The translations under genes were made by a program, and so were the position numbers. A stretch of DNA of 34,056 bases from a bacterium (GTDB lineage: Bacteria; Patescibacteriota; Minisyncoccia; UBA6257; JAGOQP01), in assembly GCA_021780615.1 (NCBI GenBank), contig JAJXYJ010000014.1:1-34056 (forward strand), given 5' to 3'. Shown one piece after another: positions 30,581 through 33,056 of the stretch (the first letter of the stretch is position 1; every line of letters starts with the position of its first letter). The notes below the pieces were generated by a model, which did not search any database, was not told where the DNA came from, and worked only from the letters and a program-made list of their open reading frames with translations.

Positions 30581-30823
30581 GTCCTTTCTATATGGTTTTG
30601 AAATTATGTGTATTGTTCTGCCTTGACACTACGGCATTATTGAGCCATTTGTCAATTGCCTTTGGGTAGTTGATTATCAATTGGTGGTTGAAATTTTATT
30701 TCGGTTCATATACACTACCCCTGTCTTTTAAAGCAAGAGACAGGTTGAAGCGTTATACCTTTCAACTTTGAACTTTGTCATTTATATATTCCGCAGTAGC
30801 TCAATGGTAGAGCGGCGCCCTGT

Positions 30824-31422
30824 GAACATAGTCTTTATTTGCTATAATTTATATATGGCAGAGAAAAGATCCTATGCCGACAGAAGAGAGGAATTAATTA
30901 AGGCCGTTGCTAAGCGACGGCGAAAGATTAAACTTCTTGCTATTGCTTATAAAGGTGGCAAGTGCCAAGTGTGTGGATACGATACGTATCCAGGTGCATT
31001 GGATTTGCACCATCTTAATAGCAGTACTAAATCTTTTGGCATTGGTGATAAAGGGTACACGCGTTCTTGGGAAAAGATTAAACAAGAACTCGATAAATGT
31101 ATTCTGGTATGTGCTAATTGCCACAGAGAAATAGAAGCCGGTATAACGCAGCCCTTTGGAGTAATCCAAAGAGGAAAAACAAGGTGAAATCGGTGAAGCC
31201 CTGAGTGTATCGAAGGGTAATACCGAGCCTAACTCTCAAAAATCTGATGTTTGATATCAGACTTTCGATTGGAGGTGTAGAGACTATTCCTTTGAATCCT
31301 TCATAGTTTTACGCGAAGAAGGAGAGGAAGTACGCTGGCGCGTGCGTCAGTGGAAGCGCCTTGTCTCCTTTAATAAAGGAGAGTGATATAGTCCATGCTC
31401 AAAAGTAATTTTGGGATACGTG
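30824..31422 (+). other. Group I intron in tRNA-Asn anticodon loop
   Basis: 5' exon ends in U, intron ends in G; R-like gtagagactat (31276-31286) and S-like gatatagtcc (31385-31394) can form P7; P/Q-like cggtgaagccctgag...aataccgagcc after ORF. Confidence 0.88.
30855..31187 (+). CDS. HNH homing endonuclease encoded in the intron
   Basis: MAEKRSYADRREEL...GGKCQVCGYDTYPGALDLHHLN...CILVCANCHREIEAG. Listed ORF starts in the tRNA; internal Met 30855 is intron-internal. Confidence 0.88.
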   Translation: MAEKRSYADRREELIKAVAKRRRKIKLLAIAYKGGKCQVCGYDTYPGALDLHHLNSSTKSFGIGDKGYTRSWEKIKQELDKCILVCANCHREIEAGITQPFGVIQRGKTR

Positions 31423-31448
31423 TAAGGCGATGGTTGTAGGTTCGAGTC

Positions 31449-33056
31449 CTACCTGCGGAGCCATATGGGATGAGCAGAGCCAAAAGCTCTGCTTTTCTCT
31501 TTATCTACGGGCTCTTTTGGCGGTTCGAAAGTATTTTTATCAGTGTTTTTCTCGGATAACGCTTCATTTACGGTGCCGAGTATGAGTTGAAAGGGTTTTT
31601 GGTATGAAATCTCGACATTTTTGCCGTTTATCCTTGGGTTCGAAAATAAAAATGAGAATAGCATCCGTTTCTGTTCGACTGTCCGTCTTGGGTTCAAATA
31701 AATCTCCCTTGCCTGTTTTGCGATCTCAAGCACTGTCACGCCCATCTCAAAGTATTTGAGACTGGCATTGCGATGCTTATTCAAGCTATCAAGCACGCTG
31801 TCCTGCTCTTTCTTGTATTGCTCGAGCTTTTTGTTATAAAACTCGGCACTGATCCGGCAATCGATTTTATCGTCATAAAGTTTGTCTATTCGTTGGGTCG
31901 CTATCTGGTATTGTCGCTCAAGCTCGGCCGAAGATTTTTCTCTAAAGGCAATTTCATCGGCATGGCCTTCCCTTAGAGCTTCTTGGACCCACGACAACAT
32001 GCGTTCTACCCGCTCGTCTTTGTGGGTTACGGCGACTATGGATTCAGCGATTTGGATGTCGATATTTTCTTGTTTGACCCAATCTCGCTGTGAGCAATTC
32101 TTATAATGGTTGCAGTGGCCATACCAGTGGCCTTTTTGTATCTCCCACGTTATCGTTCCTCCGCATTCGCTACAGCGGAATACGCTTTTGAATAGCGAAT
32201 TGTGCTTGCGTGCTCTCGGCGCGCCATAGCTGTGCAGTTTATCCTGTACCTGCTGATAGAGTTCTTTGGTTATGAGCGGTTCGTGGTTGCCTTTGGTGAT
32301 CTGATTTTTCCACCGGTTCATTCCGTAATAAAATGGATCGCCGATAAGCTGGTGAATTCTGGCATGGCTTACTTTGTGGCCGGTTCGGGACCGGAGGCCT
32401 TTCTCGTACATTACGTCGCATAAGGTTTTGGTTGAATGCTGGCCGGAAGCATAAAGCTCGAACATCTTTTTTATAAGCGGTGCTTTTTCCTCATCCGGCA
32501 CATGGATTTTGTGGCCCTTGTCGCCGATTGTTTTATATCCAAGCGGTGGCTTGGTCGGAAGCCAGCCTTGCGATAATTTTTCTTTTTGACCTTTCTTTAC
32601 GTTCTCTGAAAGAAGCCGGATGTAATACTCGGCCGTGGCCACTTTGACTCGCCACATAAACCATTCATGGGATTTGGAGTCTTTGTGCAGAGTACAGCTT
32701 TCTTTAACCAGATGAATGGTGTGCTTTTCATCAGCCAGTATCCATTCGTCGATTACCGGCACGTCGGCGAAGTTACGGGTTAGGCGGTCGGTGGTTTCCA
32801 CGAAGATCGTGTTGATCTTAGCTTTGGTTACATACTCCATCATCTCGTGGAATATCTTTCTTTGGATTTTGCCGGCCGCCGATTCTTGAATGGCAAAAAC
32901 TTTTACGAGCTCGTAGCCGTTTCGATCGGCAAAGTCTCGCAAAAGTTTTTCTTGAGCCGGTAAGGAGTAGCCGGTGTCCTCTTGATCCTTGGAGGAGACA
33001 CGGGCATATCCTACGGCTCGCAATGGTTCAATTTCATTTTGCATTGTCATAGTCAT
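31449..33056 (-). CDS. Large serine recombinase/integrase
   Basis: VGYARVSSKDQEDTGYSLPAQEKLL, recombinase domain KPPLGYKTIGDKGHKIHVPDEE, zinc ribbon FRCSECGGTITWE...CNHYKNCSQ, coiled coil. Confidence 0.93.
   Translation of the reverse strand: MTMTMQNEIEPLRAVGYARVSSKDQEDTGYSLPAQEKLLRDFADRNGYELVKVFAIQESAAGKIQRKIFHEMMEYVTKAKINTIFVETTDRLTRNFADVPVIDEWILADEKHTIHLVKESCTLHKDSKSHEWFMWRVKVATAEYYIRLLSENVKKGQKEKLSQGWLPTKPPLGYKTIGDKGHKIHVPDEEKAPLIKKMFELYASGQHSTKTLCDVMYEKGLRSRTGHKVSHARIHQLIGDPFYYGMNRWKNQITKGNHEPLITKELYQQVQDKLHSYGAPRARKHNSLFKSVFRCSECGGTITWEIQKGHWYGHCNHYKNCSQRDWVKQENIDIQIAESIVAVTHKDERVERMLSWVQEALREGHADEIAFREKSSAELERQYQIATQRIDKLYDDKIDCRISAEFYNKKLEQYKKEQDSVLDSLNKHRNASLKYFEMGVTVLEIAKQAREIYLNPRRTVEQKRMLFSFLFSNPRINGKNVEISYQKPFQLILGTVNEALSEKNTDKNTFEPPKEPVDKEKSRAFGSAHPIWLRR
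31472..31496 (+). terminator. Terminator downstream of tRNA-Asn, inside the recombinase 3' end
   Basis: gcagagc-caaaa-gctctgcttttc. Confidence 0.65.

Follow-up and report, generated by a model that had tools for sequence, protein, structure and literature searches.

A group I intron in the anticodon of a Patescibacteriota tRNA-Asn(GUU) gene, with a probable HNH homing endonuclease directed at the same tRNA gene

The tRNA-Asn(GUU) gene described in this work is interrupted inside its anticodon by a group I intron, which very probably encodes an HNH homing endonuclease targeting tRNA-Asn, from a family found also in layouts resembling collaborative homing. The sequence analysed, here called the window, is a stretch of 34,056 nucleotides (contig JAJXYJ010000014.1; G000:C3) from a Patescibacteriota draft MAG of 612 kb in 22 contigs, 96% complete. 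The interest of the locus lies in the three layouts of the endonuclease family and in the fact that coding and guide sequence overlap.

The split tRNA-Asn gene and its intron

The features of the locus are as follows.

30790-30823 (+), 5' exon of tRNA-Asn(GUU), up to anticodon base 35; joined exons accepted by ARAGORN
30824-31422 (+), group I intron of 599 nt between anticodon bases 35 and 36; position +1 is G30824 and the last base G31422
30843-30848 (+), TATAAT box preceded by TGC, 6 nt upstream of the HNH start, a possible internal promoter; position conserved
30855-31187 (+), HNH endonuclease ORF of 110 amino acids in the P1 loop, extending across the guide sequence, P2 and the P3 5' strand
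31147-31151 (+), C31147, pairing with G30824, and the internal guide sequence GCAG, pairing with exon CUGU, together P1; covariation in 86 introns
31154-31171 (+), P2 hairpin
31180-31186 (+), 5' strand of P3, partner at 31357-31363; covariation in 61 introns
31190-31280 (+), P4-P6 domain; Rfam alignment and fold
31281-31286 (+), 5' strand of P7 (AGACTA), partner ATAGTC at 31388-31393; Rfam match
31287-31346 (+), two predicted hairpins between P7 and P3', resembling P7.1/P7.2; fold
31364-31382 (+), P8 hairpin; Rfam match and fold
31398-31415 (+), P9 hairpin; Rfam match and fold
31423-31463 (+), 3' exon of tRNA-Asn, starting at anticodon base 36, with CCA encoded; ARAGORN on joined exons
31472-31494 (+), terminator-like hairpin followed by a T run

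Joining of the exons 30790-30823 and 31423-31463 gives a 75 nt tRNA-Asn(gtt) which ARAGORN accepts, and with it the tRNA identity proposed in a sequence-only reading of this DNA. That reading had also placed the insert of 599 nt between anticodon bases 35 and 36, with U before it and G as its final base; the exon join and the recurrence of the junction in relatives bear this out, and by these comparisons the split gene is confirmed to the base. Chance is excluded, since the same junction recurs in 15 of 380 sampled genomes of the phylum and around 70 of the best 80 HNH relatives. When unspliced the gene is missed by both ARAGORN and Rfam; the intron mode of ARAGORN finds the same span, but puts the splice elsewhere and labels it Thr, and most of its other predictions in this genome look spurious. 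Standard tRNA finders miss genes split in this way. The single G.A mismatch, at the upper end of the anticodon stem, recurs in the intronless relatives L096-L098 and is therefore no sign of decay. No second tRNA-Asn was found in the 96% complete genome, where Rfam detects 28 tRNAs, none of them Asn, and a genome-wide search for the tRNA-Asn 3' end allowing up to three mismatches matched the interrupted copy only. The dependence of the cell on splicing, which the sequence-only reading had tied to such a search, agrees with this outcome, and the apparently sole tRNA-Asn of the cell would have been made dependent on a selfish RNA.

The assignment to group I, for which an Rfam scan had been proposed in the same reading, is supported by the Intron_gpI model (RF00028), which matches 31131-31415, the 3' half of the intron, from end to end with 47.9 bits (E 5.5e-11), 2 bits short of the gathering cut-off (50). 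Scores for homologues inserted at this site range from 41.7 to 90.3 bits, and 18 of the 21 scanned from other sources pass the cut-off. In P1 the exon bases CUGU (32-35) pair with GCAG at 31148-31151, with U.G at the splice site. Position +1 of the intron and the base before GCAG are G-C in 52 of 86 introns, A-U in 23, C-G in 5 and G.U in 2, one of the four non-pairing cases being a mis-picked guide, and the P3 strands, chosen without using complementarity, pair at three positions in 55, 57 and 58 of 61 introns with several compensated types; the introns are related, and these counts do not equal independent events. The terminal G is found in the window intron and in all 87 distinct homologous introns, the finder having required it for loci L108-L187 and not for the first 24 introns. 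The fold predicts two hairpins, resembling those of subgroup IA, in the segment from P7 to P3' of the window intron and of L092. A search by eye for a conserved P10 found none. The guide of the window would also pair with the CUGU of tRNA-Asp, tRNA-Tyr and tRNA-His.

An alternative guide near the HNH start codon (GGCAGAG) was rejected, as homologues and covariation fix the guide at 31148, and the minimum free energy fold of the whole precursor was discarded because P1 was mispaired in it.

At the RNA level the essential tRNA-Asn(GUU) would be transcribed together with a self-removing intron: exon CUGU would pair with the guide GCAG to form P1, a guanosine bound in P7 would attack after U35, and U35 would then be joined to U36. 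Such self-splicing is very likely, to judge from fold and covariation.

Facing the tRNA on the opposite strand, a large serine recombinase gene (window 31449-33056, minus strand) converges on tRNA-Asn, the final 15 bp of the gene overlapping the tRNA 3' end. In the relatives G426, G392, G393 and G395, too, a serine recombinase gene terminates at or within the 3' end of tRNA-Asn, some of these recombinases sharing only about 30% identity, so that this 3' end is likely a repeated integration site. Other contigs of the genome show further unusual RNA genes. One tRNA-Tyr(GTA) lies within another, tRNA-Tyr-like gene, at the end of its extended anticodon arm (L043 9583-9806; G000:C5 28583-28806); the two have nearly identical ends, the insert flanks are complementary, the whole folds with a z of -7.1, and the relatives searched match over a single tRNA-Tyr only. 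A second interrupted tRNA, tRNA-Thr(GGT) (L043 10117-10384; G000:C5 29117-29384), carries roughly 195 nt of inserted sequence, which probably follows position 36, with a weak Rfam group I match nearby (16 bits, E 0.03). A group I intron-like insert is found in an apparent 23S rRNA gene (L030 1501-1687; G000:C17 44742-44928) with 25 bits and E 7e-5.

The HNH reading frame and the guide sequence

The HNH endonuclease that had been read within the intron is recognised by the PHROG HNH families (E 2.7e-30), while the Pfam HNH match is weak (E 0.0053) and below the cut-off. The ORF of the window is intact, has the HNH motif with zinc-binding cysteine pairs and retains all invariant residues of the family (C37, C40, H52, H53, N88, C86, C89 and H90). 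Its structure model has a pLDDT of 74, and the best fold matches are HNH nucleases, none of them significant.

The codons lying over the guide read NNG-CAG in 73 in-intron ORFs, and the middle base of NNG makes a Watson-Crick pair with intron position +1 in 69 of these and G.U in 2, with no match in the remaining 2. P1 of the ribozyme thus dictates amino acids 98-99 of the HNH protein, and in the intron-encoded layout the reading frame, as these codons indicate, must also spell the guide sequence. The Gln codon of the free-standing copy L147 is CAA, as expected once the pairing constraint is gone.

A TATAAT-like box stands 4-9 nt before the HNH start in 48 of 74 homologous introns, compared to 5 of 74 at a control offset, and its position suggests a leaderless HNH mRNA from an internal promoter, which is plausible. 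The HNH protein, made probably from its own promoter inside the P1 loop, would cut or nick tRNA-Asn genes that lack the intron, and their repair with the intron-bearing copy as template would let intron and endonuclease spread together. Cleavage of DNA near the anticodon is likely, given the intact ORF and the association of the family with tRNA-Asn; homing by the window copy itself is plausible.

Relatives at the same site in bacteria and phages

For each of the 15 broken tRNA-Asn genes of the phylum sample, in which the pattern breaks off after CTGT, the corresponding 3' half was located, the intervening introns measuring 187-599 nt. Among the first 24 introns, an HNH ORF (broken in L091) occurs in those of at least 517 nt and in none of at most 294 nt. 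Within the order, strong HNH matches (E < 1e-40) are present in 20 of 150 genomes, the source genome included, a patchy spread, and in 16 of these 20 the HNH lies in a recognised tRNA-Asn intron. The best 80 of at least 488 related GTDB loci, which are the closest members and nearly all from MAGs, comprise 70 inside a tRNA-Asn intron at the same site, 3 on cut contigs with the tRNA-Asn 5' half present, 5 free-standing copies that immediately precede a tRNA-Asn whose intron lacks an ORF, one copy upstream of an uninterrupted tRNA-Asn, and one remnant. A junction scan not presuming Asn returned the tRNA-Asn site as the sole junction, in 69 loci. Record titles among these 80 include Nitrospira, Omnitrophota, Elusimicrobia, Acetothermia, Aerophobetes, Deltaproteobacteria, Pyrinomonadaceae and Simkania as well as Patescibacteria, and, these genomes being MAGs, single odd placements may be binning errors. 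Judged by sequence, the locus belongs to a widespread family of site-specific mobile elements, for which the tRNA-Asn anticodon is a repeated target in Patescibacteria and in several further phyla.

The contig of L108 (G386:C36) shows no difference from the window between its own first base and the end of the HNH ORF; identity then falls to 91% in the ribozyme core, and the sequence downstream is unrelated. This mosaic identity reflects either recombination or an assembly artefact, and the near identity of the G386/L108 intron was rejected as evidence of recent homing, which an assembly artefact would fit as well.

Most of the 80 best-matching viral relatives are genes standing alone within tRNA arrays. 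Clustered at 80% identity they form 44 clusters. A tRNA lies close by in 38 of these non-redundant loci and is tRNA-Asn(GUU) in 30 of the 38; permutation of the labels within loci gave a mean of 11.2 and a maximum of 19, with none of 5000 permutations reaching 30. L188, a putative viral contig, is the only viral contig found with an intron in tRNA-Asn. Phage HNH genes adjoining an intact tRNA-Asn must spare their own genome. The arrays of L190, L196, L198, L205 and L206 contain at least two tRNAs that share a GUU anticodon but differ greatly in the rest of the molecule; they flank the HNH gene on either side, and some have long variable arms.

We regard it as rather unlikely that the free-standing copies are unrelated to homing at the tRNA they adjoin and owe the Asn link to chance or shared descent. 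The phage lineages counted are related to each other, and HNH genes are reported in tRNA clusters generally (PMC6409571, PMC5966550), and both facts would fit such a link; on the other hand, the excess of tRNA-Asn persists after clustering and permutation within loci, and the bacterial free-standing copies, all just upstream of tRNA-Asn, are scattered on the tree among intron-encoded ones.

This last placement comes from a quick tree of 122 HNH proteins with few columns and many forks without support, which does not give the direction of change. L147 groups with L157 (SH-aLRT 98), L145 with L133 (90), and L142 falls within a clade of 97, and the strong branches force at least three layout changes. 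We lean, by a modest degree, towards one tRNA-Asn(GUU)-targeting HNH homing family with three interconverting layouts, namely free-standing in phages, beside an intron-bearing tRNA-Asn, and intron-encoded. If true, these would show directly how an intron and an endonuclease with the same target join and separate again.

Some intron-encoded endonucleases help splicing. The HNH could accordingly be a splicing helper, a role noted for CPR LAGLIDADG enzymes (PMC11270868), or a decaying remnant, no longer homing, in an intron which splices and is inherited vertically; the ORF-less introns at the same site and the broken ORF of L091 show that the intron persists without HNH. This is improbable, since the ORF of the window is intact with all its conserved residues, the distribution is patchy, and the same enzyme family stands alone beside phage tRNA-Asn, usually with no intron to splice. 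That the gene is simply broken or results from misassembly, a working copy lying in the 4% of the genome that the draft MAG lacks, as it lacks several other tRNA isotypes, is very improbable against intact exons and ribozyme core and the same arrangement in scores of unrelated assemblies.

With one enzyme family at one gene in intron-encoded, neighbouring and intronless layouts across bacteria and phages, cleavage, splicing and relocation become testable with small constructs, and the locus is a good case for asking how mobile introns gain cutting enzymes.

Comparison with known systems

In the literature searched, which was covered in part, nothing described an HNH family linked to tRNA-Asn. 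The closest possible prior report is a bioRxiv preprint by Nakagawa et al. (2025; 10.1101/2025.07.03.662931), which reportedly describes group I introns in tRNA genes of Patescibacteria; phylum and host gene class are the same as here, and it may include the tRNA-Asn site and so cover part of the present finding. The I-Ssp6803I system is similar in that a group I intron in a tRNA gene encodes an endonuclease for the anticodon region, but its host is another tRNA and the enzyme is of the PD-(D/E)XK class, not HNH. We know of no free-standing relatives of I-Ssp6803I beside the same tRNA.

Group I introns are known in bacterial tRNA-Leu, tRNA-fMet and tRNA-Ile2 (PMC5733544, PMC8450103) and are mentioned without detail in CPR tRNAs (PMC8172020), and the phage group I introns known at the time of one review were all in protein-coding genes (PMC3984707). 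The LAGLIDADG group I introns of CPR rRNA genes (PMC11270868) share homing and a common occurrence in the phylum, but differ in host gene and enzyme, and the main text of that paper contains neither the word 'tRNA' nor 'HNH'. HNH genes in tRNA arrays and SegB of T4 are, like the phage copies here, free-standing endonuclease genes tied to tRNAs, with neither a single-isotype preference nor a link to introns described in the available portions of these papers (PMC6409571, PMC5966550). In the collaborative homing of T7-like phages and of a cyanophage a free-standing endonuclease lies beside an ORF-less group I intron (PMC10448857), and the same arrangement, with the endonuclease gene outside the intron and adjoining the host gene, is found in L135, L142, L143, L145, L147 and L083. 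There it takes place around protein-coding genes, while here the gene is tRNA-Asn, with intron-encoded members of the same family at the site; the window, whose ORF sits inside the intron, is itself of the intron-encoded type.
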